Of a stretch of DNA of 32,641 bases, positions 851 through 13,578 are shown piece after piece. The translations under genes and the position numbers were made by a program. Numbering within the stretch: position 1 is the stretch's first letter; each line of letters starts with the position of its first letter. Under the pieces are notes generated by a model, which had not been told where the DNA came from, did no database searches, and saw only the letters and a list, made by a program, of their open reading frames with translations. This stretch comes from a virus, in IMG/VR virus record IMGVR_UViG_3300000117_000121, positions 1 through 32,641 of that record; one strand, given 5' to 3'.

Positions 851-881
851 TATTTATACCAGATTACTCTTCAATTGTCAA
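851..881 (-). promoter_or_regulatory. tmRNA promoter, sigma70-type with an embedded T4-late motif
   Basis: TTGACA at 881-876 is followed by exactly 17 nt and TATAAA at 858-853. The -10 extends to TATAAATA (858-851), which equals the T4 late-promoter consensus. The -35 lies inside the 3' end of the nuclease gene. Transcription should start near 846, just ahead of the acceptor half of the tmRNA. Confidence 0.8.
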
Positions 882-1274: not shown

Positions 1275-1658
1275 TTATTTCTCCCATGTGACTTTTGTTT
1301 TATCTGTTGATGGAATGTTATTTAATCTAAAGTTAGAACCACCAGCAACAATACAAACGAGTCCATCAGCAATAAACTCCACAACACTAAAAGTTTTAGT
1401 TTCCATATTTACTGCAATTACAACTTGAGTTCTAATATATTGTTTACCATCTTGTGCTGGTGCAATACCGTCACCAGACATATAAGGTTTTTCCCCAAAC
1501 TTCTTGTCAACTATAGTTAACATTTGTTCTGAAGACATACAATTTACTGGTTTCTGTGAATTGTAATTTGGTTCACCTTCTGGTATTCCATCATGTTCTG
1601 CATATGCACTTGTTGTTAGAACAAATATTAAAACTAATGTGCTAAATATCCGTTTCAT
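1275..1658 (-). CDS. Exported small protein of unknown function
   Basis: A 127-residue protein with a clear Sec signal peptide: basic start MKRIF, hydrophobic core LVLIFVL, and a likely cleavage after AYA near residue 20. The mature part would sit in the periplasm. It has two cysteines (about 40 and 102) that could form a disulfide. No family was recognised. It overlaps the preceding gene slightly at 1642-1658 and abuts the nuclease gene, so the three are probably one transcript. It could modify the envelope during infection, but nothing in the sequence shows this. Confidence 0.7.
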   Translation of the reverse strand: MKRIFSTLVLIFVLTTSAYAEHDGIPEGEPNYNSQKPVNCMSSEQMLTIVDKKFGEKPYMSGDGIAPAQDGKQYIRTQVVIAVNMETKTFSVVEFIADGLVCIVAGGSNFRLNNIPSTDKTKVTWEK

Positions 1659-1908
1659 TTTCTTTACCTTCTATTATGTTACTTAATCTTTTCATAATAT
1701 CTTTATCAACACAATTAATCATTTTAGGTGAAATTGTTTTTTCATATTTTTCATACGATTTATAGAATAACATATCTTGATTATCTTGAACATAAGACAC
1801 ACATTGTTCTTTTGAACCAAATTCTAAAAATGGAATAAACAATGGTGTCTCTGGTTCTCCACCAGAATTAAGCTGCGTTGTCATTACGACTATTATGAAC
1901 CACTTCAT
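1642..1908 (-). CDS. Small exported or membrane-associated protein, unknown function
   Basis: About 88 residues when started at the ATG at 1908 (MKWFIIVVMTTQLNS), which gives a plausible signal peptide. A longer frame exists to 1941 but adds only a basic leader inside the preceding nuclease gene. The mature part has two cysteines in the segments KEQCVSYV and INCVDKD and is otherwise charged. It overlaps the 3' end of the PD-(D/E)XK nuclease gene by 41 nt in another frame. The family is not recognised; similar short signal-bearing proteins with a KEQC-type motif occur in marine T4-like phages (from general knowledge). Confidence 0.6.
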   Translation of the reverse strand: MKWFIIVVMTTQLNSGGEPETPLFIPFLEFGSKEQCVSYVQDNQDMLFYKSYEKYEKTISPKMINCVDKDIMKRLSNIIEGKENETDI

Positions 1909-2575
1909 TTTCTTTTTCCCAATGCGTAGTGAAATCGTCAATCGCTTCTACTAGTAGTGGTAAGTAGTCATGTTTAGTCTTAATAAATTCTTGGACGATT
2001 CCATCTTCAGTTACAACTAGAATCACAATCTGGTTAATTTCAATTCCAGTTCTCTCTTCAAACATTTCTGCATATGCAGATGCTTGAATGTAATAAGATT
2101 CATTCCAATCATCATTTCGTTCTCTTGTAGAGGTTTTGAAATCAATAATGGAAGGAATACCATTATACTCACCAATACAGTCAACTCTACCAGCGACCAT
2201 ATATTTATCGGAGTAAAGACCACACTCTTGAGACATAATATTATCTACCTTATCTTGTAAGTGTGGTTTGATTTGTCCAAACAAAGTATATGGAAGAAAA
2301 TTCTTCTTGTGAACTTCTTCATCAAAATTATTGTTTAGAAAGTCTTCGCACATATGGTGTACTTTCGTACCCCTTGCAGCTGCTGTTCTTGCAACATAGT
2401 TTGCAACATCATCACCAACTTTCTTTCTCCACGCCATTAGTCCTTCCATTTTACGTCTTTGTAAAACAGTAGTTATAGATGGGTATAGTTTCCCATCTGG
2501 AGTTTCGTAGAAACGCTTGCGATTAACAGTTTTAGTAGAGAGTTCTGCAATCTCTATTGGGTTGTGTGTAAACAT
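1868..2575 (-). CDS. PD-(D/E)XK superfamily nuclease (RecB-like exonuclease)
   Basis: A 235-residue nuclease. The core is readable: a conserved His in RGTKVHHMCE near 69-77, Glu117, GRVD at 129-132, DFKTS at 145-149 (the D-x-K catalytic pair) and a Q-containing helix (IQASAYAEMF) after it, the order typical of RecB/PDDEXK_1-type exonucleases. Such enzymes in T4-like marine phages are thought to act in recombination or DNA degradation. The start is supported by AAGGA upstream and by a promoter at 2603-2631 that would give a leader of about 20 nt. The gene is therefore separately expressed from the endolysin gene before it. Confidence 0.85.
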   Translation of the reverse strand: MFTHNPIEIAELSTKTVNRKRFYETPDGKLYPSITTVLQRRKMEGLMAWRKKVGDDVANYVARTAAARGTKVHHMCEDFLNNNFDEEVHKKNFLPYTLFGQIKPHLQDKVDNIMSQECGLYSDKYMVAGRVDCIGEYNGIPSIIDFKTSTRERNDDWNESYYIQASAYAEMFEERTGIEINQIVILVVTEDGIVQEFIKTKHDYLPLLVEAIDDFTTHWEKENEVVHNSRNDNAA

Positions 2576-2602
2576 AATATATCCTTATCATTTAATTATA
2601 CC

Positions 2603-2631
2603 ATCATACCATAACTCAACACACTTGTCAA
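2603..2631 (-). promoter_or_regulatory. Early promoter before the PD-(D/E)XK nuclease
   Basis: TTGACA at 2631-2626, 17-nt spacer ending in ATGG, and TATGAT at 2608-2603. A second TATAAT-like stretch follows a few bases downstream. It lies in the gap between the endolysin and nuclease genes. Confidence 0.7.
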
Positions 2632-2635
2632 GTCA

Positions 2636-3157
2636 TTAAATAAGTTTCATTGCAGACTGTGTAGTCTCTGTAACCCTTCTTGTCCAACCTCTACCAAAAG
2701 TTTTAAAGTGTTTTAACTTCTCATAATACTCTTGTCTATCTGATTGGTATGTTTTAACAACATCTTCAATACCATGTTTATCAACATATGCATCAATCAT
2801 TTTAAGTGAGTTAGGGCCGATACCACCATCAACTGTTGTACCAACAATCTTTTGAATAAATTTAGCAGCTCGTCCAGTTCCAGCATTAACTCCAAAATCG
2901 AAAATGCAGAGTGCAAGCGCTGGGTGAAGTGCATCACCTTTTACTCTATCCCAATATTCAGTTTTGTAGATAGGTGCAACATCTGTTACTTCTAATTGTT
3001 TCATGTCTTTCGGTCTAAGACTATTCTTTTTACAGTATGCATCATAAACTTTTTTAGTTACGCCTAAGTTAGTTTCACCGCCTGGGTCGCTGGGATGATT
3101 CACATATCCGCCTTCGTGATGTAAGATAATTTCTAAACAATGATTATATTGTTTCAT
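2636..3157 (-). CDS. GH108-type endolysin (N-acetylmuramidase)
   Basis: A 173-residue muramidase that cleaves host peptidoglycan at lysis. The N-terminal glycosyl hydrolase 108 signature is present, with the catalytic Glu15 in HHEGGYVNHPSDPGG and the following ETNLGVT. The second half (FDFGVNAGTGRAAKFIQ and DGGIGPNS) matches the peptidoglycan-binding part that normally follows in this family. The length is normal and no signal peptide is seen, so export would need a holin. Its ATG overlaps the TGA of the small basic protein before it. Lysis genes of another type (spanins) lie far away near 22-23 kb. Confidence 0.92.
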   Translation of the reverse strand: MKQYNHCLEIILHHEGGYVNHPSDPGGETNLGVTKKVYDAYCKKNSLRPKDMKQLEVTDVAPIYKTEYWDRVKGDALHPALALCIFDFGVNAGTGRAAKFIQKIVGTTVDGGIGPNSLKMIDAYVDKHGIEDVVKTYQSDRQEYYEKLKHFKTFGRGWTRRVTETTQSAMKLI

Positions 3158-3291
3158 TTTCCTTGTCCTCTATATTTTTTAAAACTCCTACGTTTAGACT
3201 TATTCATTGTAGAAGTAATTGGTTTCTTTCCTTGAGAAGTACCCTTTGGAATACTCTCATGGGCTGATTGAGTTGAAAACATTTTAGCCAT
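3154..3291 (-). CDS. Small basic protein (45 residues)
   Basis: A 45-codon frame starting MAKMFSTQSAHES and ending in a Lys/Arg-rich tail (KSKRRSFKKYRGQGK). Its ATG overlaps the stop of phoH in a TAATG junction and its TGA overlaps the ATG of the endolysin. It exactly fills the space between two well-defined genes, which is strong positional evidence that it is translated. The charge suggests nucleic-acid or ribosome binding, but no family is recognised. Confidence 0.7.
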   Translation of the reverse strand: MAKMFSTQSAHESIPKGTSQGKKPITSTMNKSKRRSFKKYRGQGK

Positions 3292-3995
3292 TACTGTTCA
3301 ACTCCTTTCTTTGTTTTACTAATTAAATAACTACGAACTAAACCAGAACGAACAATATCACCAATATTAAATTCCACTGATTTGAACTCTTCCATGTCTG
3401 CAATAATATCTAAGAATCTAGGCATACCATCTCTATCAGAATTTTTAGTTAAATCTGATTGGAAGAAATCACCAGAAAATATAATTTTACTGTCTTGACC
3501 TACACGAGTCATAATTGTATCTAACTCATGAAAATTTAAGTTTTGACATTCATCAACTATAATAATTGCATTGTCTAATGTAATACCTCGCAAGTATGAT
3601 GTTGTTAAAAACATGACAGAACCTTGTGCTTTTAGTCTATCATACAACATTAAAAATGCTTGGTCATTTGCTTGTTTAAACATAAACTGTACCATGTTCT
3701 GATACGGAATTTGATACAAAGCTGTCTTATCTTCTTCATCACCAGGCAAGAAACCGATTTCTCTTGTGGGTACTGCACTACGAATTAGATATACACAATC
3801 ATATGGTGTAGATGGGTCTAATACTTTTTCTAGTGCAAGGTATAAGGAAATAAAAGTCTTTCCAGTTCCAGCAGCTCCATGAAGAAATAATTCTTTATTG
3901 TCTTTTTTAAATGCCTCAAAGGCAACTTTTTGATTGTCAGTAATTGGTTTGACAGTTACTAAGTCATCAATTTTTACATCTTGTTTTTTTGCCAT
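3291..3995 (-). CDS. phoH: PhoH-like P-loop ATPase
   Basis: A 234-residue PhoH-domain protein. Walker A is GAAGTGKT at 40-47, Walker B IIIVDECQ ends at 151, and sensor-type residues FSGDFFQSD follow, all typical of the family. PhoH proteins are predicted RNA/DNA helicase-like ATPases and are very common in marine phages, where they were linked to phosphate stress although their role in infection is unproven. It is a stand-alone ATPase domain without an RNA-binding extension. It overlaps both neighbours by one to three bases (TAATG), so it is translated as part of a coupled run. Confidence 0.93.
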   Translation of the reverse strand: MAKKQDVKIDDLVTVKPITDNQKVAFEAFKKDNKELFLHGAAGTGKTFISLYLALEKVLDPSTPYDCVYLIRSAVPTREIGFLPGDEEDKTALYQIPYQNMVQFMFKQANDQAFLMLYDRLKAQGSVMFLTTSYLRGITLDNAIIIVDECQNLNFHELDTIMTRVGQDSKIIFSGDFFQSDLTKNSDRDGMPRFLDIIADMEEFKSVEFNIGDIVRSGLVRSYLISKTKKGVEQ

Positions 3996-4294
3996 TAATC
4001 AATCACTCCGTGTTTCTTTAATACTTGTCTGGTTTTTGCACTCTTAGTAGATTCTTTACCATATCTATCTGCAACAGAACTGCCTGGATTTGCTTCTGCA
4101 ATCCTAGACATATGTTCCTTCCACCCATTATCATTCTTAACCATATCACCAGTTCCACTATATGACATTGCAAATAGTGACGGTAATTGTTGTATATGAG
4201 GGTTGTCTTTTAGATACTTTTCTCTATCAGATATATGAAAGAACTCTTCAAACTCTTCACCAGTTTCATTGTTTTTAAAATTATAAGTTGGCAT
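3995..4294 (-). CDS. Conserved phage protein with an FmdB-like N terminus
   Basis: A 99-residue protein beginning MPTYNFKNNETGEEFEEF, which resembles the first strand of FmdB-type zinc-ribbon regulators. The cysteines that would bind zinc in that family are absent; there is no Cys in the protein. The C-terminal half (IAEANPGSSVADRYG, RQVLKKHGVID) resembles conserved proteins of T4-like marine phages. It might be a zinc-free derivative of an FmdB domain, but the link is based on the first twenty residues only. It overlaps phoH in a TAATG junction. Confidence 0.7.
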   Translation of the reverse strand: MPTYNFKNNETGEEFEEFFHISDREKYLKDNPHIQQLPSLFAMSYSGTGDMVKNDNGWKEHMSRIAEANPGSSVADRYGKESTKSAKTRQVLKKHGVID

Positions 4295-4481
4295 CTATTT
4301 TCTCTTTTAGTCTATTTATCTCTTCTCCCAATTCCTTTACACGAATTAGAAGTTGGTAGTTTGCCTTTTGCATTTCTGCAATTTCTTTCATATACATATC
4401 TTCTCTTGACATATGAGGTTTTTCTGTCCAACCACTCAATGCACCACCAATTTCAGTAATATCATCCATAGGGTCATCCAT
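4281..4481 (-). CDS. Small coiled-coil protein, unknown function
   Basis: About 66 residues when started at the ATG at 4481, which has a strong AGGAG six bases upstream and lies 15 nt after the stop of the preceding gene. A longer frame back to 4580 would overlap that gene by 85 nt and is less likely. The N terminus is acidic (MDDPMDDITEIGG) and the C-terminal half is a heptad-rich helix (ELGEEINRLKEKID), suggesting a coiled coil or dimer. It overlaps the next gene by 14 nt. The family is not recognised. Confidence 0.65.
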   Translation of the reverse strand: MDDPMDDITEIGGALSGWTEKPHMSREDMYMKEIAEMQKANYQLLIRVKELGEEINRLKEKIDANL

Positions 4482-4495
4482 TTCTTTCTCCTGCC

Positions 4496-5092
4496 TTAGT
4501 TTCCAGAGAATCCAATCATAGTACCGTTCTGGTTCTGGGTCATGTTTATGTACCATTCTGGTCTTCCTCTTTCTTTCCAAGTTGCAAACCTTCTCTTTGC
4601 AACAACATAAAAATTACGATAAGCTTGTACAGTATTATCTTCTACCATACACTCTGGAAATTCTTTCATCGCTTGTGGAACTGGTGTACTACCCATTACA
4701 CTAGACGGCATATTCTTAGGTGGTTCTCGTAACAACCACCAATTGTCTTTTGCACCATGTTCTTTTCCATACCTATATGTATATTCCTCACAAATTAGTT
4801 TATAGTAAGTAAACATTAACATATAGTTTTCACGACACATTCGTACCCAGATATTAGTTGGGTGGTTCACATGACCAGCAAGATACAAGTCTCTATTCAT
4901 CTTTCGGTCTGGGTGTTTCCACCGTTTAATCTTTGCACCACTTTTAGTCTGACCATAATATAATTCACCATCAAGAACCCTATGTGCAGTACATAACATT
5001 TGTTTATACTCTGTAGGCATCTTGACAATGTGTTTGTCACAATGGTATTCAATCGACTTGAATGGGTCTTCATCTAGGTAAAAGAAATTCAT
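4496..5092 (-). CDS. Conserved phage protein of unknown function (CDKHIVKM family)
   Basis: A 198-residue protein that starts MNFFYLDEDPFKSIEYHCDK and continues HIVKMPTEYKQMLCTAHR. This opening is characteristic of a family found in many T4-like and marine phages with no established function. It is rich in aromatic residues, His and Trp and has no signal peptide or TM helix. Conserved His/Lys/Cys positions near the N terminus could be an active site, but this is a guess. It overlaps the preceding gene by four bases (ATGA type). Confidence 0.75.
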   Translation of the reverse strand: MNFFYLDEDPFKSIEYHCDKHIVKMPTEYKQMLCTAHRVLDGELYYGQTKSGAKIKRWKHPDRKMNRDLYLAGHVNHPTNIWVRMCRENYMLMFTYYKLICEEYTYRYGKEHGAKDNWWLLREPPKNMPSSVMGSTPVPQAMKEFPECMVEDNTVQAYRNFYVVAKRRFATWKERGRPEWYINMTQNQNGTMIGFSGN

Positions 5093-5343
5093 AACAGTTT
5101 AATCCTTTGTAGTGTATCCAATACTTTTTCTTCATCTGCCCAACCGATTACATCTTCAGTTATTGGAGTACTATAACACAAATCTCCACCAGAGTCAAGT
5201 ACTGCAATCTCATATAATCCCATTTTACCACCATAAGAAGTAGAATGTTGAACTATAGATGCACCATACCCATTATCAAATTGATATGTGTACCCCCAGC
5301 CATCATGGACTTTACTTTTCTTTGCATAACCTCTTAACGTCAT
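5089..5343 (-). CDS. Small hypothetical protein (84 residues)
   Basis: The ATG at 5343 (MTLRGYAKKSK) has AGGTGGG a few bases upstream and is preferred over a GTG at 5352. The protein is rich in Gly and Tyr (DGWGYTYQFDNGYGASIV) and looks like a small beta-rich domain. It has one Cys and no TM segment. It overlaps the SleB-type hydrolase gene before it by four bases and the next gene by four. No family is recognised. Confidence 0.65.
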   Translation of the reverse strand: MTLRGYAKKSKVHDGWGYTYQFDNGYGASIVQHSTSYGGKMGLYEIAVLDSGGDLCYSTPITEDVIGWADEEKVLDTLQRIKLL

Positions 5344-5885
5344 TTTTCCCACCTATAAAATATATGGTCTTCAATTTCAATTGTCCTTGTCTTGGTTTTT
5401 CTCCAAGCAGGAAATACATAATCTGCATGGTAATGTGTTGCACCTTCAGTTATATCAACAACAGTTATGTCACCATAAACTAAATCTGCAGCCATTTCAT
5501 ACAATGCACCATAAGTTGTTGGTTCATGTGGTGTATCATCTTTACCATCACAATACCAACTAAATTGGCAACGGTGACGAATTGGGTAATAATTTCGTTC
5601 ACTGTCTGGAACATCTTTACCTTTAGTTTTCCATGATTCTCTAACAGGCCCTTGGTGAACTACTTCACAGATTGTGTTAGGATATCTTTTATCTTTAACA
5701 CGATTTAATACAACTAAACTTACTGCGAGTTGTCCAGCGAGTCCTTGACTACGAGCTTCATGATACATATTATTCGCTAAACAGACTGCTTGTTTATCAA
5801 GGTAGTCTGTCGCACCTTTTAATGTTACATCTACTTCACCAGCGGAAGCAGATATAACAAAGGTTGTTAAAAGTTCTTTAAGCAC
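5340..5885 (-). CDS. SleB-type cell-wall hydrolase
   Basis: A 181-residue enzyme of the Hydrolase_2 (SleB/CwlJ) family, lytic transglycosylase-like peptidoglycan hydrolases. The signature is complete: CLANNMYHEARSQG with catalytic-type Glu43, then LAVSLVVLNRVKDKRYPN, CQFSWYCDG, and the closing THYHADYVFPAW. The first fifteen residues are weakly hydrophobic and could be a poor signal peptide; otherwise it is cytoplasmic. This is a second wall-degrading enzyme beside the GH108 endolysin. It could act in lysis or be packaged for entry. It overlaps the preceding gene by eight bases. Confidence 0.88.
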   Translation of the reverse strand: MLKELLTTFVISASAGEVDVTLKGATDYLDKQAVCLANNMYHEARSQGLAGQLAVSLVVLNRVKDKRYPNTICEVVHQGPVRESWKTKGKDVPDSERNYYPIRHRCQFSWYCDGKDDTPHEPTTYGALYEMAADLVYGDITVVDITEGATHYHADYVFPAWRKTKTRTIEIEDHIFYRWEK

Positions 5886-6150
5886 TTTTTTCTACCATAA
5901 ATGCATCCAGATATTCTGGATTAGATGTTTGTAAAGTATAAACACTACCGAAATACTTTTCAAAAGTTCTCAATAAATTTATGTAGTCACCAGATTTCAT
6001 CTCATTCAAGATTCTATCTTGCATCTCTTTATCAAAGTTACTTTTTTTCATAGTAGCATTTGCATATCCCAGAAGGCAAAATGCATTGCCTTCTGAACCA
6101 TCTAAGTCTATCACAGTAGTAGATGGTCTACCTTTTGCTTGTATTGTCAT
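5878..6150 (-). CDS. Conserved phage hypothetical protein (90 residues)
   Basis: The protein starts MTIQAKGRPSTTVIDLDGSEG and includes an AFCLLGYANATM segment, a pattern I associate with small proteins of marine T4-like phages. There is no TM helix or metal motif. The ATG at 6150 overlaps the TAA of the preceding gene, and the end overlaps the SleB gene by eight bases, so it is part of a coupled operon. The function is unknown. Confidence 0.65.
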   Translation of the reverse strand: MTIQAKGRPSTTVIDLDGSEGNAFCLLGYANATMKKSNFDKEMQDRILNEMKSGDYINLLRTFEKYFGSVYTLQTSNPEYLDAFMVEKSA

Positions 6151-6404
6151 TAAGCAGCCTCCAACATTGCGAAAGGTACATTATAACTTCTACCTTTCAT
6201 ATTAACGATTGCTCTGGTCTGATTGATTTTCTCAACAATCCCAGGCGTCTTTTTTGTTTTTTGCACAACAAAAACATTTCCACCAACTATAATTGCAGAT
6301 TTTGCTTTCATAGTTTTGATATCTGATATCATACTCTGTACTTGAGTAAGTTCAGATATTGTTAGACCCATAAGTTGGTCGTTCACTTTTGATAAATTTG
6401 ACAT
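6150..6404 (-). CDS. Small protein with a KOW-like C-terminal segment
   Basis: About 84 residues from the ATG at 6404 (MSNLSKVNDQLMGL), which has AGAGAGG nine bases upstream; a longer frame upstream overlaps the preceding gene. The first half is helical. The second half (GNVFVVQKTKKTPGIVEKIN, then TRAIVNMKGRSYNVP) has the Gly/Val alternation and 'GIVEKI' turn of KOW/SH3-like small beta barrels, which bind RNA or ribosomal proteins. That resemblance is suggestive only. Confidence 0.6.
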   Translation of the reverse strand: MSNLSKVNDQLMGLTISELTQVQSMISDIKTMKAKSAIIVGGNVFVVQKTKKTPGIVEKINQTRAIVNMKGRSYNVPFAMLEAA

Positions 6405-6426
6405 GATATAATCCTCTCTTATGTCG

Positions 6427-6642
6427 TTAAAATAATTTAGTTCCAACTTCAGCAGCTCGTTGTATCTCAAACGCTTCTGCTTGTTCATTGATATGTTGGT
6501 CTTGCAATTCTGCATCAACCATACCAGTGAATGATTGTGTCAAGTGAAACCACTTGTTCACAAGAAGATTTGCAGCTTTTTGTTTTTCTGCATCTGACAT
6601 TCTTGCGAGTGACTCGACAAATTGTTCTGCTGTAATTTTCAT
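6427..6642 (-). CDS. Small early protein (71 residues), unknown function
   Basis: A helical, alanine-rich soluble protein (MKITAEQFVESLARMSDAEK). It has its own sigma70-type promoter at 6674-6702, giving a leader of about 25 nt, and a GAGAGG ribosome-binding site before the ATG. This independent promoter places it among the early genes. No family is recognised. Confidence 0.65.
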   Translation of the reverse strand: MKITAEQFVESLARMSDAEKQKAANLLVNKWFHLTQSFTGMVDAELQDQHINEQAEAFEIQRAAEVGTKLF

Positions 6643-6673
6643 AATAACCTCTCTTTTTTCATCTTATAGAATC

Positions 6674-6702
6674 ACTATACCATGTTCTGACAACAAAGTC
6701 AA
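6674..6702 (-). promoter_or_regulatory. Early promoter before the 71-residue protein
   Basis: TTGACT at 6702-6697, a 17-nt spacer ending in ATGG, and TATAGT at 6679-6674. The -35 begins just after the stop of the SprT-like gene. Confidence 0.75.
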
Positions 6703-6703
6703 G

Positions 6704-7138
6704 TTAAATCTCACCACTTTCCCAAACTTTTAATGCGAGACTATCTTGCACCTTATATGCTTCTTTTTCCCAAGGTAAATCATAGTAAGTAGTTTTTGGA
6801 TTTACCTTTCTACCTTTCCAAGTAGCTGCACCATACTGAACACATTCGTCAGTCATTTCATTTCTTGCATACTGTTTAACATGAACCATTTCATGACACA
6901 CTGTGGTTACCAATTCATTGATACCCATCTTGCTATCAATCTCAATTTCAAAAGTACGGTTATCATCTGTCATTCCACAGAAACCAACTGCACCTTCTTT
7001 TTTACTGAATGTTCTGAAAACAACTTCAATATCAAGTGTTCTAAATCTAGGAAGTAATTCTGCTATCATTTGGTGTACAGTAGTAATAGCGATATCTCTT
7101 TGATGCTTTTTACCACCTTTTGCACTCACAAAATTCAT
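6704..7138 (-). CDS. SprT-like zinc metalloprotease
   Basis: A protein of about 144 residues with the SprT-family zinc site HEMVH in TTVCHEMVHVKQYARNE, and a downstream Glu in PWEKEAY that may be the third ligand. SprT/Spartan-type proteases cleave DNA-bound or crosslinked proteins; bacterial SprT is poorly characterised. The ATG at 7138 is chosen because AGAGAG lies ten bases upstream and the promoter at 7172-7200 then gives a normal leader; the alternative ATG at 7162 would leave only about 3 nt. It has its own promoter and so is independent of the small RNA unit upstream. Confidence 0.85.
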   Translation of the reverse strand: MNFVSAKGGKKHQRDIAITTVHQMIAELLPRFRTLDIEVVFRTFSKKEGAVGFCGMTDDNRTFEIEIDSKMGINELVTTVCHEMVHVKQYARNEMTDECVQYGAATWKGRKVNPKTTYYDLPWEKEAYKVQDSLALKVWESGEI

Positions 7139-7171
7139 AGTCTTTTTTCTCTCTTTTTTCATTATATTATC

Positions 7172-7200
7172 ATTCTATACTAAAAATGGAGTAATGTCAA
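7172..7200 (-). promoter_or_regulatory. Early promoter before the SprT-like gene
   Basis: TTGACA at 7200-7195, 17-nt spacer, TAGAAT at 7177-7172. It would start transcription near 7165, about 27 nt before the preferred ATG. Confidence 0.65.
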
Positions 7201-7239
7201 GTGTTATTTTTATCCTTATAAATCAAGGGTTTACAAGGG

Positions 7240-7270
7240 AAAAAAGAGGGGGTAGCTTTACACTACCCCC
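7240..7270 (-). terminator. Intrinsic terminator after the RNase H operon and the candidate sRNA
   Basis: A perfect 8-bp GC-rich stem, GGGGGTAG (7270-7263) and CTACCCCC (7255-7248), with a 7-nt loop, followed on the minus strand by TCTTTTTT. There is no T-run on the plus side, so it works for minus-strand transcription. Confidence 0.9.
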
Positions 7271-7329
7271 AAGGGTGATTCGCAAATGGTCTTTTGAGAG
7301 AGAGTGAGAGGTGACCATATTGGAATCAT
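7240..7329 (-). ncRNA. Candidate small RNA with a pyrimidine-rich loop
   Basis: A short transcription unit of about 90 nt lies between a sigma70-type promoter (7336-7364) and an intrinsic terminator (7240-7270), and contains no reading frame of note. Reading downstream from the predicted start, a 6-bp stem ATGGTC/GACCAT (7318-7313 with 7291-7286) holds a loop containing ACCTCTCACTCTCTCTC. The first seven loop bases, ACCTCTC, are exactly complementary to GAGAGGT, the ribosome-binding site of the genes starting at 6642 and 11098. The next gene has its own promoter after the terminator, so this is not simply its leader. It could instead be the tail of the upstream operon's mRNA. Expression is unproven. 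Confidence 0.5.
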
Positions 7330-7335
7330 CTTACT

Positions 7336-7364
7336 AATATACCAGAAGTATATCGTAAAGTCAA
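7336..7364 (-). promoter_or_regulatory. Promoter of the candidate small RNA
   Basis: TTGACT at 7364-7359, 17-nt spacer ending CTGG, TATATT at 7341-7336. It lies a few bases after the stop of the 157-residue conserved protein and about 65 nt before a strong terminator. Confidence 0.7.
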
Positions 7365-7370
7365 GTCAAA

Positions 7371-7844
7371 TCAAATAATATTACCGTTAGGCATCCAATA
7401 ATCATCTGTCCAACCAAACGCTGTTTTCACAACATTATCTGAAAGACCTTTGTATTTTTGATGCAGAACTTTATCCTTTACATGACAAAGAACTTCTGCT
7501 TCATTTTTATGCAAACCTTCTAACATCTGAATGAACATAGATTCTTTTCTCATTCTGGGTGTTTGATTATCTGCACCTTTAATGAAGTGCCATAATCTTC
7601 GTGATTCTTGAGAAAGTACAGTATGTTCTGTACCTTCAGGCGATTCATTTGCTTTATATGGAGTATCACCCTCTGGTAATACCCATTCAATTTTTGGGTC
7701 AAAAGATGCTTTAATAATCATTCTAAGAGCTTCAGTATCGTTTTCTCTTAGAACTGCAATCTTCTTATCTTTAGTTTTTGCATTGTTTACTTTTTGCAAC
7801 ACTTCTGATATAAGTGGTGTGTAAGTTTTTATAGGTTTATTCAT
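7371..7844 (-). CDS. Conserved T4-like marine phage protein (likely DUF6433)
   Basis: A 157-residue soluble protein whose opening (TYTPLISEVLQKVNNAKTKD, then KKIAVLRENDTEALRMIIK) matches my memory of the DUF6433 family in T4-like cyanophages and relatives. The C-terminal part ends TDDYWMPNGNII. The family function is unknown. It follows the RNase H gene with a shared base at 7844 and may act with it in replication, but this rests on context alone. It is the last gene before the terminator. Confidence 0.75.
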   Translation of the reverse strand: MNKPIKTYTPLISEVLQKVNNAKTKDKKIAVLRENDTEALRMIIKASFDPKIEWVLPEGDTPYKANESPEGTEHTVLSQESRRLWHFIKGADNQTPRMRKESMFIQMLEGLHKNEAEVLCHVKDKVLHQKYKGLSDNVVKTAFGWTDDYWMPNGNII

Positions 7845-8698
7845 TAGAAATCTCCAATATTTTCCATTAGGTTTTTTAATTTATACTTTATAAAGTAATT
7901 TAGTAGTTGTTTCCTATCACCATTGGGAGTATCCACATAAGATTGAATACACTCATTTACTAGTTCTTCTGGAATATAGTTTAAATCTATTAGAGTTCTA
8001 TTTCTATGAAAGTTTCTCATCATCTCTTCATTACAGAAATCTTTAGGTTCAAGTTCAATCCAAGTTTCAAGTTTTCTTTTTGAGATAGGTCTTTGACGAA
8101 TCTCATCTACGAAAGTACTATCTGGTGATAAAAAGTTTGGTACTCCATCACTTCTATCACCTTGAAGTATATGTGTCTTAATATATGTAGTAGGGTCTTC
8201 ACCATTAAGAAATTTCTTTTGAGTTGGACTATATTGCGATACAAAATTATGTTGTTGCAATTGAATAAAGTCTTTGTCTCCAGAAAGAATTAGTACCTTC
8301 TCGTAATTCTTTGGTTCTTTTGCAACATGAAATACCACAGATGCAATGATATCATCTGCTTCTGCTGTCTCTACTTGCAATACTTTGTAGGGAAAGTACT
8401 CTGTCAATTCGTCACGAATTAAATGCAGAGTATCGAATATAGAATTCCAATCTAATTTAGATTCTTTTCTATCTTTTCTACGACTATATTTGTAGTTGGG
8501 AAATATTTCCCTTCTCCAGTTATTCTTAGCATCATAACACAGTACAAGTTCACCATACTCATCAGAGAATTTCCTACGATATCCTCTCAATGAATTTAGA
8601 ACCATGTGTCTTACTAAATCTGGGTCTACTTCTTTACGTCCACCAATCTGCACCATCAAGTTAGATAGTGTGACTTGGTTCATATCAACTAATATCAT
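7844..8698 (-). CDS. rnh: T4-type RNase H (5'-3' exonuclease, FEN1 family)
   Basis: A 284-residue nuclease that removes RNA primers and adjacent DNA from lagging-strand fragments. It aligns by eye with T4 RNase H along its length: MILVDMNQVTLS at the start, CYDAKNNWRREIFPNYKYS, the acidic motif ETAEADDIIASV, LSGDKDFIQLQ, then GDRSDGVPN, all metal-site segments of FEN1-like enzymes. The ATG at 8698 is chosen from this alignment and a GGAG just before it; a longer frame to 8740 overlaps the upstream gene. It overlaps that gene by 14 nt and shares a base with the next. Confidence 0.93.
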   Translation of the reverse strand: MILVDMNQVTLSNLMVQIGGRKEVDPDLVRHMVLNSLRGYRRKFSDEYGELVLCYDAKNNWRREIFPNYKYSRRKDRKESKLDWNSIFDTLHLIRDELTEYFPYKVLQVETAEADDIIASVVFHVAKEPKNYEKVLILSGDKDFIQLQQHNFVSQYSPTQKKFLNGEDPTTYIKTHILQGDRSDGVPNFLSPDSTFVDEIRQRPISKRKLETWIELEPKDFCNEEMMRNFHRNRTLIDLNYIPEELVNECIQSYVDTPNGDRKQLLNYFIKYKLKNLMENIGDF

Positions 8699-9080
8699 CT
8701 CCGTCACCATCATCCTTCGATTGAGGAATACATTCGTCAATCTTGTTCAAATTTATTCTAGTCATTATTGTCTTATCATCATTGGTTTCAGTCTTTACAA
8801 TTAAATCCATAAAGTGTTGCATAGGGTGGTCAAACCCCATTTGTCTATAGAGAGCACTCTTAACTACTTCATTAAGGAAACTTATATCACCAATAAACCT
8901 ATCCTTCTTAATATCAAATCCATTTTCACCAACATTATGTATAAGGTTAATCATTAGACCTTCTGCGAGATTATCGCAAAAGTCTAAATCCTCAGTAACC
9001 CTTTGTGCATCCATATCTGTAATCTTAGGTGCATCTTTACCTTTATATGTTGTTGGAAATTTTATGACATTATCGCTCAA
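8685..9080 (-). CDS. Conserved phage hypothetical protein with acidic tail
   Basis: A 131-residue soluble protein (MSDNVIKFPTTYKGKDAPK). The helical middle contains a DFCDNLAEGLMINLIHNVG segment and the tail is very acidic (SKDDGDGDDIS). Similar proteins sit next to RNase H in marine T4-like phages, as far as I recall, which suggests a role in replication, but no activity is known. It overlaps bS21 by four bases (ATGA type) and RNase H by 14. Confidence 0.7.
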   Translation of the reverse strand: MSDNVIKFPTTYKGKDAPKITDMDAQRVTEDLDFCDNLAEGLMINLIHNVGENGFDIKKDRFIGDISFLNEVVKSALYRQMGFDHPMQHFMDLIVKTETNDDKTIMTRINLNKIDECIPQSKDDGDGDDIS

Positions 9081-9373
9081 TAGCCTAACTCCGTTTTTCT
9101 CTTTTCGACTTTTTTCTGGTAACGTCTTTTTCCTGCTGCTTTTGCTTTACGTTTCTTTTCACCTTTACTAGTGAAATAAGTACGTTCTCTTAGTTCTTGG
9201 AAGAAACCATCTTTCATCAGTTTCTTCTTTAGAACTCGCATTGCACCATTTACGTCAGATGTTACGTTTCCGTCTTTATCTCTAATCTGACGTACTGTTA
9301 CCGTCATCCCCTCATCTCTTGGAAACTTTTCCTTCTTATGAAAGGGTTTCTTATTGAATTTATTGTATCTCAT
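9077..9373 (-). CDS. rpsU: Ribosomal protein bS21, phage-encoded
   Basis: A 98-residue, very basic protein. After a 22-residue extension (MRYNKFNKKPFHKKEKFPRD) it follows the bS21 pattern: VTVRQ, then VNGAMRVLKKKLMKDGFF, LRERTYFTSKGEKKRKAKAA and a Lys/Arg helix. In bacteria bS21 sits on the 30S platform near the anti-Shine-Dalgarno sequence and affects initiation. Phage copies are known and are thought to replace the host protein and favour phage mRNAs. The start at 9373 has AAGGAG seven bases upstream, so the N-terminal extension is real. It follows the lipoprotein gene by eight bases. Confidence 0.92.
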   Translation of the reverse strand: MRYNKFNKKPFHKKEKFPRDEGMTVTVRQIRDKDGNVTSDVNGAMRVLKKKLMKDGFFQELRERTYFTSKGEKKRKAKAAGKRRYQKKVEKRKTELGY

Positions 9374-9381
9374 TTAACTCC

Positions 9382-10035
9382 TTAACCAGCGTTTATTATT
9401 TTATTTAGTTTGTCTGTCTCAGACTCCTTTACCTTGTTAACATCTGCATCAAGTTCTTTAAATGCTTCGTTAGCTCTAATCTTAGACATTAACATCTTAT
9501 CCTTCTTTAGACGATTAAGAAGAATTTTCTGTGCTTCTTCATCAGAGTATTCCAACAAAACATACACACGATATTGCATACCATTAGAAACAATCTTTGA
9601 TTCTTTCACACTATATCCAGCAACATCTACATCAGCAACAATATTCTTTGTTGCAGTAGAAATCTCATTTATCACAGAAGCATCTAAATCAGAAGAACCT
9701 ACTTTTGTCATAAATGATTTCGTTACAGAATTCAACCTACCGTTGATTCTATCTGCAAGAATTGTCTTTGCACTAAGGATTGCAATATCCTTTGATAGTT
9801 GCAACTCTGGAGATAATGCAGTACCCACCGAATAAATTGCCTCTTTATTATTAGGCATTTTGGTGAACCAATCTGGAACTTGTTCCACTTGTTCTTGCAC
9901 TACCTTTGCAGTGTGTTCATATGCTTTCTTTACTGCAAATGGAGTTGGTTTGGATGCACTGTCAATATTGCCTGTATTTGCACACGCTCCTAAGAAGGCA
10001 CCCATAGCGCCTACCATAATCACATTTTTAATCAT
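9382..10035 (-). CDS. LPP20-family-like lipoprotein
   Basis: A 217-residue lipoprotein. The N terminus is a signal sequence with a lipobox LGAC, giving a lipidated Cys18. The body (PDWFTKMPNNKEAIYSVGTA, then ADRINGRLNSVTKSF and YRVYVLLEYSDEEAQKILL) follows the pattern of LPP20/LPP-type outer-membrane lipoproteins. In a lytic phage it could alter the envelope, for example to block superinfection, but nothing here proves that. RBS AAAGAGG precedes the ATG, which overlaps the stop of the small TM protein gene. Confidence 0.78.
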   Translation of the reverse strand: MIKNVIMVGAMGAFLGACANTGNIDSASKPTPFAVKKAYEHTAKVVQEQVEQVPDWFTKMPNNKEAIYSVGTALSPELQLSKDIAILSAKTILADRINGRLNSVTKSFMTKVGSSDLDASVINEISTATKNIVADVDVAGYSVKESKIVSNGMQYRVYVLLEYSDEEAQKILLNRLKKDKMLMSKIRANEAFKELDADVNKVKESETDKLNKIINAG

Positions 10036-10172
10036 TACTCTACCTCTTTCAATTGGTTTACGATTTGGTCACGAATACCACTGTCTACAAACATAGCTTT
10101 AGTGGTGGTTGTAATTTGTGGATAATATGTAACCAATACTATTCCTACCACAATTCCCATAATAAATTTCAT
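10035..10172 (-). CDS. Small single-TM protein (45 residues)
   Basis: A 45-codon frame starting MKFIMGIVVGIVLVTYYPQI, a clear N-terminal membrane anchor, followed by a short polar tail (DSGIRDQIVNQLKEVE). It shares a TAATG overlap with the lipoprotein gene after it and one base with the gene before it, which supports translation. Short membrane proteins of this form occur in marine T4-like phages (general knowledge). The function is unknown. Confidence 0.7.
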   Translation of the reverse strand: MKFIMGIVVGIVLVTYYPQITTTTKAMFVDSGIRDQIVNQLKEVE

Positions 10173-10519
10173 TAGTTAAATATCCCATACAATATTGCAT
10201 CAATAACTTTTGGTTTATCGTCTGCATAATTACCATAATAATGTGTTGGGTCTGGACTTGAAGTTGGTCTAATTGGTTTAAACAATTCTGCCATCTTTTC
10301 TGCCTTACTCTTTTTCTCAACTTCAATATATTTTATTAGAAGTTCTGGTGGAGTATCACACACATATTCAGTTTTTGAACTTACAATATCACCATCTTTA
10401 TATTTGACTATTTTTACATAATCACAATCTTGACTTGAATGGGCATCTGGTATAAATGAACCAAGTACCCATAACATTAGAATTGTTGCACCAACAATCC
10501 ATAATATATTTTTAATCAT
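10172..10519 (-). CDS. Membrane-anchored or exported protein (115 residues)
   Basis: The first 24 residues (MIKNILWIVGATILMLWVLG) form a TM helix or signal peptide. The remainder is polar with two cysteines (about 32 and 54, in DCDYV and EYVCDTP) that may pair in the periplasm. A promoter at 10551-10579 gives a leader of about 25 nt, so the gene heads an early operon with the small TM protein, the lipoprotein and probably bS21. Confidence 0.65.
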   Translation of the reverse strand: MIKNILWIVGATILMLWVLGSFIPDAHSSQDCDYVKIVKYKDGDIVSSKTEYVCDTPPELLIKYIEVEKKSKAEKMAELFKPIRPTSSPDPTHYYGNYADDKPKVIDAILYGIFN

Positions 10520-10550
10520 AGTTTACTTTCGTTACTCGTTAATTTAGTCT

Positions 10551-10579
10551 ATACTACCAAATTTCTTAGGCAGAGTCAA
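10551..10579 (-). promoter_or_regulatory. Early promoter of the lipoprotein-bS21 operon
   Basis: TTGACT at 10579-10574, 17-nt spacer ending TTGG, TAGTAT at 10556-10551. The -10 is weaker than its sister promoters. The -35 overlaps the last codons of the preceding gene. Confidence 0.6.
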
Positions 10580-10892
10580 GTACTTTCTGAACAGCATCTA
10601 AAGCATTATATCCAAATCCACCGATATGCCAATCATATTCTCCAGTGGGGATATATCCATCTTTCCAATTGTAGATAGTCGCTGTAACATAATTAAAGTC
10701 TTCACCGTATTCATCTACAAAAGGAACTTTGATATCCAATGTCCACTGTGCATTGACCTTTTCATAAGGACTTGCATCTGTAAATGTTGGTTCTCCGAAC
10801 ACCTCGACTAACTTATCATAAGTTGTTTTTATCTTACCTTGTAAGCTACTCATATTAACATTTACTGCATCACTGTTTTCAAACTCTAACAT
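10566..10892 (-). CDS. Conserved phage hypothetical protein (108 residues)
   Basis: A soluble protein with the segments YDKLVEVFGEP, NAQWTLDIKV, ATIYNWKDG and GEYDWHIGGF. This order (a 'FGEP' helix, a beta strand, a 'YNWK' strand and a closing 'WHIGG') is a recognisable small family in many dsDNA phages, without known function. AGGAGAGGTAG precedes the ATG. It overlaps the preceding gene by seven bases. Confidence 0.72.
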   Translation of the reverse strand: MLEFENSDAVNVNMSSLQGKIKTTYDKLVEVFGEPTFTDASPYEKVNAQWTLDIKVPFVDEYGEDFNYVTATIYNWKDGYIPTGEYDWHIGGFGYNALDAVQKVLDSA

Positions 10893-11098
10893 TCTACTAC
10901 CTCTCCTTTATCAATCCAAACCAAGTTTTCTTCAAATAGAACTTCCCATGTATCCTTTCTCTCTTTCAAGTAGTCGAACATATAGACGTTCTCTTTCGCC
11001 CATTTGATAGCATCTTTTGCATTATCAAACTCACCTTTTAAACCCCTTTTATTCATTTGGGTATAAACGATATATTTTAGTTTTTTCACATTTTCCAT
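10886..11098 (-). CDS. Small early protein (70 residues), unknown function
   Basis: The ATG at 11098 (MENVKKLKYIVYTQMNKRG) is preferred over an upstream TTG because GAGAGGT lies eight bases before it and the promoter at 11124-11152 gives a leader of about 19 nt. The sequence suggests a small alpha/beta fold (IVYTQMN, FDNAKDAIKWAKENV, WEVLFEE). No family is recognised. Early expression is inferred from the promoter. Confidence 0.7.
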   Translation of the reverse strand: MENVKKLKYIVYTQMNKRGLKGEFDNAKDAIKWAKENVYMFDYLKERKDTWEVLFEENLVWIDKGEVVEC

Positions 11099-11123
11099 AG
11101 TATTACCTCTCAATTATATTTAC

Positions 11124-11152
11124 ATTATACACTGTTTTTAAAACAAAGTCAA
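11124..11152 (-). promoter_or_regulatory. Strong early promoter
   Basis: TTGACT at 11152-11147, 17-nt spacer, consensus TATAAT at 11129-11124. The spacer TTGTTTTAAAAACAGTG is nearly identical to that of the promoter at 11396-11424. Confidence 0.85.
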
Positions 11153-11160
11153 GGATTATT

Positions 11161-11367
11161 TTAGAAATAACCCCAGAAATCGTTCCACATATCGTCTACC
11201 ACACCTTCTGCGATACCGATATCGAAATGAGTTGTCAAACCCAACTTCTCTACCACAAAGGCTTTCATCTCTGCGATATGTTCACACTCACCAATCTTGG
11301 TTTCAAGACCGTCAATATCAAAGACTTTCTCTTCAATATCCATGATGTAGTTCTTAACTTTTCCCAT
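11161..11367 (-). CDS. Small acidic early protein (68 residues)
   Basis: An acidic soluble protein (MGKVKNYIMDIEEKVFDIDG; closing WNDFWGYF). A consensus promoter at 11396-11424 and an AAAGAGG ribosome-binding site lie directly upstream. Size, charge and independent promoter fit a host-takeover early gene, but this is only context. No family is recognised. Confidence 0.68.
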   Translation of the reverse strand: MGKVKNYIMDIEEKVFDIDGLETKIGECEHIAEMKAFVVEKLGLTTHFDIGIAEGVVDDMWNDFWGYF

Positions 11368-11395
11368 AATTTACCTCTTTCTCTATTATATTATC

Positions 11396-11424
11396 ATTAT
11401 ACACTGTTTTTAGAACAATGTCAA
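11396..11424 (-). promoter_or_regulatory. Strong early promoter
   Basis: TTGACA at 11424-11419, 17-nt spacer, TATAAT at 11401-11396: full consensus in both boxes. The -35 lies over the end of the 81-residue gene before it. Confidence 0.88.
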
Positions 11425-11666
11425 GCCTTTTCTGCAAATAATTTACCCATTCCTTCAAAGACCACATTATAAGCATTTACTTCATATACCCAAACATCAA
11501 AGAAATCATCATCATCCATTTCAGTATCCAAGGTGCAATGTGTGTTCCATATTGCGTTCATTTTCTCCATACCACCCAAAAGGTTACCATCTCCAAGACC
11601 TTTGATGGTGGTTACAGCGTCATCCCACTTAGGGGTATCGACATAAAAATTAGGAATTCTAAACAT
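11421..11666 (-). CDS. Small acidic early protein (81 residues)
   Basis: A soluble protein beginning MFRIPNFYVDTPKWDDAV with an acidic centre (TEMDDDDFFDVWVYEV). It has its own promoter at 11702-11730 and an AGAGAGAG tract before the ATG as ribosome-binding site. Like its two small neighbours it forms a separate early transcription unit. The family is not recognised. Confidence 0.68.
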   Translation of the reverse strand: MFRIPNFYVDTPKWDDAVTTIKGLGDGNLLGGMEKMNAIWNTHCTLDTEMDDDDFFDVWVYEVNAYNVVFEGMGKLFAEKA

Positions 11667-11701
11667 ATTTTTCTCTCTCTCTTTATCTTAATTACTCTTA
11701 G

Positions 11702-11730
11702 AGTATACCTTGTTTTCATAACAAAGTCAA
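11702..11730 (-). promoter_or_regulatory. Early promoter of the 81-residue protein
   Basis: TTGACT at 11730-11725, 17-nt spacer TTGTTATGAAAACAAGG, TATACT at 11707-11702. It starts immediately after a terminator (11746-11773). Confidence 0.8.
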
Positions 11731-11745
11731 GTCTTTTTTTGGGCC

Positions 11746-11773
11746 TAAAAAAACCCTTGAAAATCAAGGGTTT
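11746..11773 (-). terminator. Intrinsic terminator
   Basis: A 10-bp stem AAACCCTTGA (minus 11773-11764 reading) with TCAAGGGTTT (11760-11751), 3-nt loop, followed by four further T on the minus strand. It ends transcription from the 75-residue and 18-residue genes. Confidence 0.8.
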
Positions 11774-11779
11774 AAATAG

Positions 11780-11836
11780 TTATTTTTTGTTAGGTTTTGA
11801 GATTAATTCCCATTCTTCATCCGTATACGGCCACAT
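11780..11836 (-). CDS. Possible 18-residue peptide gene
   Basis: ATG at 11836, six bases after the stop of the preceding gene, reads MWPYTDEEWELISKPNKK and stops at 11780, seven bases before a terminator stem. The position between a gene and its terminator and the ordered, amphipathic sequence favour a real peptide. The ribosome-binding site is weak and the length is minimal, so this remains tentative. Confidence 0.4.
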   Translation of the reverse strand: MWPYTDEEWELISKPNKK

Positions 11837-11842
11837 GATTCG

Positions 11843-12070
11843 CTACTTCAATTCTGCGAGTTTTTGGTCATATTCTTTATTTGTCTGGTCTTGAACTCTT
11901 GCTAAATGGTATGGTGCTTCTCTATCAAATCTTTGATATTCTTCAAATATTTTACGATTGGCTGATAATTGTTTTCCTCTTTGCATTTCTATTAAAATTC
12001 GTGCAAAAAATAGACGAATTTCATCACACACATGACAAGTCTGCTCGTACACAGCAGTTGCTACTGACAT
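11843..12070 (-). CDS. Small helical protein (75 residues), unknown function
   Basis: MSVATAVYEQTCHVCDEIRL opens with a CxxC pair (TCHVCDE) followed by long charged helices. A single CxxC could bind metal in a dimer. AAGGAG lies before the ATG. Upstream are an inverted repeat (12095-12114) and a TATAAATA late-promoter motif (12123-12130), so unlike its neighbours it is probably expressed late. The family is not recognised. Confidence 0.65.
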   Translation of the reverse strand: MSVATAVYEQTCHVCDEIRLFFARILIEMQRGKQLSANRKIFEEYQRFDREAPYHLARVQDQTNKEYDQKLAELK

Positions 12071-12094
12071 TTCTCTGTCTCCTTTTTTGAAAAG

Positions 12095-12114
12095 ATAGTT
12101 TAGAATTAAACTAT
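12095..12114 (-). repeat. Perfect inverted repeat in a 5' leader
   Basis: ATAGTTTA and TAAACTAT separated by four bases form an 8-bp hairpin in the leader between the late promoter (12123-12130) and the ribosome-binding site of the 75-residue gene. It may stabilise the mRNA 5' end or act as an operator. Confidence 0.55.
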
Positions 12115-12122
12115 TACACCAT

Positions 12123-12130
12123 TATTTATA
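12123..12130 (-). promoter_or_regulatory. T4-type late promoter
   Basis: An exact TATAAATA on the minus strand, 53 nt before the ATG of the 75-residue gene, with no -35 box. This is the late-promoter consensus of T4, read through the gp55-type sigma factor. Confidence 0.65.
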
Positions 12131-12182
12131 ACAATAGACCTATTACTGAAACGCATATCTATATTGTCTATTTGGAAACAAT

Positions 12183-12491
12183 CTACTTATTAAATAGTTT
12201 TTCCATCTTGTTCTGTCTAGGTCTTCTCATGACCTTTTCTTTTTTGGGGGGTTCTGGTTCTACTTTTTTTATTCTTTTCGCAGCTTCATCTTGTTTTTTC
12301 CACTTCACTTGTTCTCGCATATTTAACTGTGGTCTAAAATGTTCTAAAACTTCTTCTGCATTTTCTGTAAATTCTAACATAAATTTAATTGCAATATAAC
12401 TATCACCTTTAAACATAAGACGGCTATTCTGGTAAACCTTACCCTTACCATCTTCCATTAGTATTGTACAATCTTTACAGTCAAACCTCAT
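12183..12491 (-). CDS. Small basic protein (102 residues), unknown function
   Basis: The N-terminal half (MRFDCKDCTILMEDGKGKVY) has a CKDC pair and a beta-type sequence; the second half is helical and ends in a basic, proline-rich tail (PEPPKKEKVMRRPRQNKMEK). It overlaps the resolvase-like nuclease gene by 11 nt. The tail would suit nucleic-acid binding. No family is recognised. Confidence 0.62.
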   Translation of the reverse strand: MRFDCKDCTILMEDGKGKVYQNSRLMFKGDSYIAIKFMLEFTENAEEVLEHFRPQLNMREQVKWKKQDEAAKRIKKVEPEPPKKEKVMRRPRQNKMEKLFNK

Positions 12492-12819
12492 CTTTGTGCA
12501 GTCCTACAAAATACTCTGCATCAACTACAACTAATGGTTTATGATTATTTCTTTTAATCACAACCACTGGTTCATAGTTTTTAGAGTTTTCGACTGCTTG
12601 AGAATATGATTCCCATATGTTTAATTTTTCTTGATTTTTACACTCAATAGAATAAGGGAACTTTTCTCTTGCAGCCCTTGCCATAATTAAGTCTTCACCA
12701 CCAGCACCCATAGACCTAGATTCTACATCTTCTGGATGCACTTCTAATTTTTCAATCAATTGGTCACGAAACCATTGTTGTAATCTGCGACCTTTAGCTT
12801 TTGCACTTTGTGTTTTCAT
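12481..12819 (-). CDS. PD-(D/E)XK-type endonuclease (Holliday-resolvase-like)
   Basis: About 112 residues from the ATG at 12819, which overlaps the stop of the preceding gene (TAATG). The motif order fits a minimal PD-(D/E)XK nuclease: an N-terminal basic helix (KAKGRRLQQWFRDQLI), SRSMGAGGEDLIM with an acidic pair (Glu42, Asp43), then SIECKNQ with the E-x-K pair (Glu59, Lys61). This arrangement resembles archaeal Hjc-like resolvases and small phage endonucleases. T4-like phages need a resolvase for packaging, but T4's own endonuclease VII is of another fold, so a replacement role is only a possibility. Confidence 0.7.
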   Translation of the reverse strand: MKTQSAKAKGRRLQQWFRDQLIEKLEVHPEDVESRSMGAGGEDLIMARAAREKFPYSIECKNQEKLNIWESYSQAVENSKNYEPVVVIKRNNHKPLVVVDAEYFVGLHKDEV

Positions 12820-13088
12820 TACCATGACCAATCCCATTTCCAAGGTAACATTGAAACACCCAACATATTAAACCAAATTTCGGCAATATAAACTATAACA
12901 ACAAATATACAGATTTCAAAAATAAGTTTATATGGTTGGGGTAATTTATTTTTCCACGCAACAAACTTACTTTGTTCTACCTTCTCATCAAGTTTTGTTT
13001 TGTTTATTATTTTTTCTGTCCACCAGTTATGGTCTAGGATGTTTTTCAACATTATCAACGGCCAGAATATTATTTTAAGAATTTTCAT
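12819..13088 (-). CDS. Small inner-membrane protein (89 residues)
   Basis: Started at the ATG at 13088 (MKILKIIFWPLIMLKNIL). It has a hydrophobic N terminus, a charged loop (INKTKLDEKVEQSKFVAWKN) and a second TM helix (IFEICIFVVIVYIAEIWF), then a Trp-rich end. Both ends may lie on the same side of the membrane. It overlaps genes on both sides by four bases or less. The function is unknown; a holin role is possible but no lysis gene is adjacent. Confidence 0.6.
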   Translation of the reverse strand: MKILKIIFWPLIMLKNILDHNWWTEKIINKTKLDEKVEQSKFVAWKNKLPQPYKLIFEICIFVVIVYIAEIWFNMLGVSMLPWKWDWSW

Positions 13089-13312
13089 ATAGTTTTCCAC
13101 TGTTGTTTTAATGGTGGTGATACAATCGATTCATCTGTCCAATTTTCATCCCAAACGTCCATATTCGCTTCAGACCATCTTGTATATTCTTTTTCACAAA
13201 CATCACAACGACAATGGTGACAGACTAATACTTGTTTGTCTTCACCAAAGTCTTTGTATAACTTAGTATTACAATGTGATTCGTGTCCACAATTTTTACA
13301 ACCACTAATCAT
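13085..13312 (-). CDS. Small cysteine-rich zinc-type protein (75 residues)
   Basis: ATG at 13312 (MISGCKNCGHESHCNTKLYK), overlapping the stop of the 35-residue gene. The protein has a CKNC pair, then CHHCRC and DVCEKE, at least seven cysteines plus several His in the first half, arranged for two zinc sites. A longer frame upstream runs through the neighbouring Cys-rich gene in a different phase and is not used. It is the third member of a cassette of tiny metal-binding genes after nrdB. Zinc or redox function is inferred. Confidence 0.65.
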   Translation of the reverse strand: MISGCKNCGHESHCNTKLYKDFGEDKQVLVCHHCRCDVCEKEYTRWSEANMDVWDENWTDESIVSPPLKQQWKTI

Positions 13313-13412
13313 CCAATTCACTGCATTTACATTTTGTACAAGCACATTGTCCATGTTGACAACGACTATATTTGCAGTGACACTCATGACCACAATCTTC
13401 GCAATTAGTCAT
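13305..13412 (-). CDS. Tiny cysteine-rich protein (35 residues)
   Basis: A 35-codon gene, MTNCEDCGHECHCKYSRCQH and onward, with nine to ten cysteines in CxxC, CxC and HxCxC arrangements, similar in style to metallothioneins or a zinc knuckle. AGGAG lies seven bases before the ATG. It overlaps the preceding gene by eight and the next by eight bases, so the three are translated together. It binds metal almost certainly; the role is unknown. Confidence 0.68.
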   Translation of the reverse strand: MTNCEDCGHECHCKYSRCQHGQCACTKCKCSELDD

Positions 13413-13575
13413 AATCGTACTCCTCATATTCTTCGTTTACTTCATCTTCATCATCAATATTTATCTCACCACCACAAAAGACACAATGTCTTGCATGGTA
13501 GTATTTTTCTGACATTCCAAACTGAACCTTGAATTCAACGTCACAGTCATTACAATAAAGAACTTTTTTTGCCAT
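13405..13575 (-). CDS. Small zinc-ribbon protein with acidic tail (56 residues)
   Basis: MAKKVLYCNDCDVEFKVQFG opens with CNDC, and CVFCGG follows at residues 31-36, giving a standard two-knuckle zinc ribbon. The last twenty residues are almost all Asp, Glu and Tyr. Zinc ribbons with acidic tails often contact RNA polymerase or ribosomes, so a transcription role is possible. It begins three bases after the nrdB stop and overlaps the next Cys-rich gene. Confidence 0.72.
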   Translation of the reverse strand: MAKKVLYCNDCDVEFKVQFGMSEKYYHARHCVFCGGEINIDDEDEVNEEYEEYDYD

Positions 13576-13578
13576 ATT

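Follow-up and report, generated by a model that had tools for sequence, protein, structure and literature searches.

The 32,641-nucleotide stretch of DNA analysed here (the window), a 33-kb piece of a T4-like marine phage whose genes lie almost all on the minus strand, probably encodes an early trans-acting antisense RNA that silences one of the phage's own late genes. The RNA element is conserved among related phages, the loop of its first hairpin is complementary to the leader of a single late gene, and this leader is unique among the gene leaders with which it was compared.

The small-RNA unit sits on the minus strand, a detail that the initial annotation did not give, with a DUF6433 gene at 7844-7371 on one side and a metallopeptidase-like gene at 7162-6704 on the other. 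It comprises a sigma70-type promoter at 7364-7336 (TTGACT-17-TATATT, 10 of 12 matches, with a TG before the -10 element forming an extended -10), which is kept in the closest relatives, and an intrinsic terminator at 7270-7240 (GGGGGTAGTGTAAAGCTACCCCC-TCTTTTTT), which is found in all close relatives and is listed first, with the highest number of G-C pairs, in a terminator scan of positions 1-19000. From a predicted transcription start near 7329, the product would be an RNA of about 90 nt (7240-7329). The initial annotation had noted a promoter and a terminator about 65 nt apart that enclose no gene, and indeed no ORF of at least 40 aa lies within the 65 nt that separate them. The RNA folds with -26 kcal/mol (z -5.3), a value that 0 of 200 shuffles equalled, and a covariance model matches 7329-7239 with 100.7 bits, the window sequence itself being among the members of that model. 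Its first hairpin (7277-7327) has the arms GAUUCCAAUAUGGUC and GACCAUUUGCGAAUC and a 21-nt loop that starts with ACCUCUCACUCUCUCUC (7312-7296). The ACCTCTC described earlier in this loop is there, at 7312-7306 on the minus strand, within the loop core ACCUCUCACUCUCUC (7298-7312) that pairs with GAGAGAGUGAGAGGU of the late-gene leader. The element thus has what is expected of a trans-acting phage small RNA, namely its own promoter and terminator without an ORF, and a complementary target at another phage locus is present in sibling contigs, the window's own locus lying past the end of the record. Covariance models of Rfam 15 gave no match to the RNA up to an E value of 5, BLAST against cultured phages returned a single weak chance match and nothing else, and a literature search with partial journal coverage found no description of it.

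Conservation was followed in 80 related loci gathered with the upstream gene. About 25 of the closest have the promoter-RNA-terminator unit, while the gene on its 3' side varies among them. The 17-nt loop sequence ACCUCUCACUCUCUCUC is invariant across 15 distinct relatives, whereas the stem sequence varies with pairing maintained: the apical stems differ and pair in every case (for example AUAUGGU/ACCAUAU, GGUAUG/CAUACC and GAUAUGG/CCAUAUC). RNAalifold on a MAFFT alignment reported almost no apical-stem covariation because the apical stem was misaligned, and per-sequence folds were used in its place. At more distant loci the same genomic place holds a stem AAGGUGUU/AACACCUU with an identical loop core, or the stems UGUGAUACC/GGUAUCACA and GGAACACA/UGUGUUCC with loops around CUCCUCUCUCUCACUU; the covariance model built from the close set has weak matches at several of these distant loci. 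A hairpin search recovered the same architecture, a CU-rich loop of 20-27 nt and a terminator, in Melnitz-3, a cultured OM43 phage, and in additional contigs. Promoter, loop and terminator all persist while the 3' neighbour changes, and the earlier proposal of a free-standing RNA aimed at a ribosome-binding site is, as far as sequence can tell, well supported.

Variants of the locus were also seen. One locus (L010, 4470-4740) holds a long form, about 170 nt in length, in which an additional outer stem, GUGCGAUAUU/AAUAUCGCAU, encloses an unchanged loop core. In L028 (4612-4627) and similar contigs, the leader of the early gene adjoining the RNA reads GAGAGAGAGTGATTCG; other lineages, too, have the hairpin framed by GATTCG/CGAATC. 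Downstream of the DUF6433 gene in L245 and L246 (contigs G022 and G011) lies a longer RNA that holds an ORF of about 52 codons (MISFGIGM...KNGQLQ), the codons of which embed UCCUCUCUCUCAAC, with GATTCG and GCGAATC plus a terminator as flanks; this long RNA is possibly a dual-function RNA.

The partner of the loop emerged from a scan of 2.9 million viral contigs for the loop 15-mer ACCTCTCACTCTCTC, which occurs in two recurrent settings, the small RNA itself and the leader of one late gene. In the latter, the loop complement lies right behind TATAAATA, the T4-type late promoter, and a few nucleotides ahead of the ATG. The loop of the RNA is a 13-15-nt complement of this leader and its ribosome-binding site in the sibling contigs, and RNA and target share one contig, about 11-14 kb apart, in G001, G003, G004 and G006. 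The window record stops about 3.7 kb short of the expected target position (to the left), so that the target in the window phage is deduced from G003, a collinear sibling that is 93-98% identical and contains it. The target gene follows gp32 and codes for a protein of about 158 aa with a C-terminal membrane helix. The protein is assigned to PHROG 32327, a family without assigned function; Pfam gave sub-threshold matches only, and with an AlphaFold model of moderate quality (pLDDT 76) a PDB fold search found no match and a viral fold search found uncharacterized homologs only. Where homologs of the target occur in phages that lack DUF6433 or in contigs of bacterial MAGs, their leaders are unrelated.

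In the set of G001, G003, G004 and G006 the target leader ranks first of 111, 62, 75 and 41 gene leaders, respectively (ranks are approximate, since a simple ORF rule was used to call gene starts), with pairing energies of -32.5, -30.0, -28.5 and -27.8 kcal/mol that 0 of 1000 shuffled loops equalled in these four clade contigs. Across 67 ortholog clusters the target has a mean of -29.7 against a median of -8.4 (SD 4.0), and the next-best cluster, an early 81-aa gene, reaches -20.1. The remaining leaders with a strong Shine-Dalgarno sequence average only -13.2 +/- 4.0 kcal/mol (best -21.2), and the strength of the Shine-Dalgarno sequence thus does not account for the pairing of the target. The early gene of about 81 aa (MQIQKKIEDINFTT...), which is present in G001, G004, G005 and G006 and has the leader UUGAGAGAG(UG)AGGU, comes second among the conserved partners of the loop, with energies of -19 to -21 kcal/mol. 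Because any purine-rich ribosome-binding site pairs with a CU-rich loop, some off-target pairing is to be expected.

This raises the question whether the RNA is instead a general Shine-Dalgarno binder, a CU-rich loop that silences many phage or host mRNAs of the GAGAGG type, among which the late gene is merely the strongest. The UCACCUC within the loop is identical to a portion of the 16S 3' tail usual in bacteria, moderate pairing is seen for several other leaders (as for the 81-aa gene in four contigs), and phage Melnitz has the RNA without the target. Yet the invariant 17 nt far exceed a Shine-Dalgarno core, and the late leader stands apart from every other leader with a strong Shine-Dalgarno sequence. 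The initial annotation had pointed to GAGAGGT at the start sites of early genes. Such sites are present on the minus strand (6653-6647, 10905-10899 and 11111-11105), but not above chance frequency, the window having 5 where 2.9 are expected and 21 of 100 shuffles reaching the same count. Targeting of early genes through GAGAGGT was rejected on this ground: those matches are 7-mers at chance level, whereas the conserved partner that stands out belongs to the late genes, and prediction against phage leaders, as the initial annotation had proposed, does single out one leader in four contigs, only not that of an early gene. General binding is for these reasons an unlikely explanation.

The silencing reading makes a clean prediction, that loop and leader change together, and between lineages they do change in a matched fashion. 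In G035, which has an altered loop, the leader of the target homolog is CAGUGGGAGAGAGAG; it pairs with its own loop at -27.8, compared with -18.8 to -23.4 for the loops of clade A, and ranks first of 42 leaders. A third version occurs in G007, where the leader UAAGUGAGAGAGGU pairs with its own loop at -20.2 and with clade-A loops at -13.8 to -17.4; here the target ranks fourth of 72, and the loops of three other, non-clade-A lineages pair slightly better than its own. Leaders that retain the clade-A core carry mostly A-to-G changes, which preserve pairing as G-U, as is seen in G004. In G009, too, the best of the 71 leaders belongs to the late operon of the target, being that of its first gene (-20.6), and the target itself reaches -17.6. 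The match is not uniform, and more distant carriers show weak pairing or none. The pairing is unremarkable in G022 and G011, where the target ranks seventh and sixth; and the relation is weak in G026, where 13 of 1000 shuffles are equally good. G026 had been considered as an RNA-less negative control and was rejected as such, the hairpin search having located an RNA 0.6 kb downstream. In G032, no such RNA was found within 40 kb, and the leader pairs poorly.

A role in host takeover, with host mRNAs as the chief targets of the RNA, would agree with its promoter of early type. However, such a role does not predict the joint change of the loop and a phage late leader between lineages, and we regard it as quite improbable.

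The silencing of the late gene may be pictured as follows, with transcription, its timing, repression and threshold behaviour being what we infer from the arrangement of these signals. The sigma70 polymerase of the host would make the small RNA before the onset of late transcription, and its hairpin would display an unpaired CU-rich loop. Once transcription starts from the late promoter ahead of the post-gp32 operon, the 5' end of the new mRNA would be a nearly exact complement of the loop (GAGAGAGUGAGAGGU, Shine-Dalgarno sequence included), and pairing over 13-15 nt between loop and leader would block ribosome binding. Synthesis of the membrane-anchored late protein may thereby be delayed or limited until its mRNA outnumbers the small RNA. 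Since the RNA has a promoter of early type and the target a late promoter, it is probably an early RNA that acts on a late mRNA. This order is the reverse of the repression of early genes later in infection that had been suggested, a timing for which the early-type promoter and the late partner offer no support. The alternative suggestion of a decoy is unlikely as well, because the loop is complementary to Shine-Dalgarno sequences and a ribosome decoy would need to resemble one.

It is conceivable that the late mRNA, far from being repressed, is activated or stabilised when the RNA covers its 5' end, as the pairing in clade A begins at about the predicted first nucleotide of that mRNA, a start that we place by assuming the usual late-promoter geometry. 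The Shine-Dalgarno sequence is covered by this pairing as well, an arrangement that is usually repressive and makes this scenario very improbable. Least credible of all is that the RNA serves the next gene as its leader or attenuator: it lies directly upstream of the 7162-6704 gene on the same strand but ends in a complete terminator, persists in relatives where the next gene differs, and is followed by a separate promoter for that gene (7200-7172, TTGACA-17-TAGAAT).

Late-gene timing in T4-like phages is taken to be transcriptional, through a late sigma factor and the sliding clamp, with RegA, RegB and similar proteins contributing as well. Silencing of one late operon by a trans-acting RNA would be a further level of control beyond these and, if true, would give a virulent phage a riboregulated switch from early to late expression. 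It is appealing to propose, and we lean slightly towards this view, that the RNA belongs to an undescribed family of RNAs in marine T4-like phages that are made early and stored, that time the post-gp32 late operon, and whose loop evolves in step with the leader it matches.

Several known RNAs share parts of this design. The alpha-r14/cuckoo RNAs display an ultraconserved anti-Shine-Dalgarno motif in hairpin loops with variable stems, and silencing through pairing at the translation start has been demonstrated for NfeR1 of Sinorhizobium meliloti (PMC10746234). The phage RNA likewise has a conserved loop on variable stems. However, alpha-r14/cuckoo RNAs have three hairpins with CCUCCUCCC, whereas the phage RNA has one hairpin and a terminator and a different, longer loop motif, and they have many chromosomal targets, whereas the phage RNA is encoded by a phage gene and has one dominant target (PMC10746234). 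By description, Xanthomonas sX13 is similar in that its pyrimidine loops find their partners in purine-rich motifs at translation starts, but it has three C-rich loops with 4-5 C and a broad bacterial regulon (PMC3771888). Most of the known phage antisense RNAs come from temperate phages (PMC12197685). P22 sar, P1/P7 c4 and lambda OOP also pair with mRNA of their own phage, c4 via loops at the ant ribosome-binding site, but their phages are temperate, and for several the gene lies within the controlled transcript or opposite to it (PMC12197685). In contrast, the RNA described here comes from a T4-like phage, its target lies about 11 kb away behind a late promoter in the siblings, and no listed ORF lies opposite it, which argues against a cis-antisense RNA of the sar/OOP type. 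VpdS of phage VP882 and PreS of lambda are likewise trans-acting phage small RNAs, but they are Hfq-dependent and also or chiefly target host mRNAs, and no co-variation of a loop with a late leader is described for them in that source (PMC12197685). PAK_P4as15 has been proposed to restrain a late (endolysin) gene in a virulent phage, but it is a cis antisense RNA of about 550 nt rather than a trans-acting RNA of about 90 nt (PMC12197685).

A similar RNA, built in the same way, is present in Melnitz, a cultured phage of OM43, which makes an established phage-host pair available for work on expression. Neither a homolog of the target nor an outstanding pairing site was found in Melnitz, where a gene shortly after gp32 ranks fourth of 215 leaders and does not stand out. 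In Melnitz-3 (MZ577098, 38547-38726; locus L258, 3988-4167) an annotated short hypothetical CDS spans a 15-bp hairpin, a CU-rich loop and a terminator, and is probably a non-coding RNA gene. The window also encodes, at 514-885 on the minus strand, a permuted two-piece tmRNA of the alphaproteobacterial type; such tmRNA genes have already been reported in Melnitz and other marine phages (PMC9004378).
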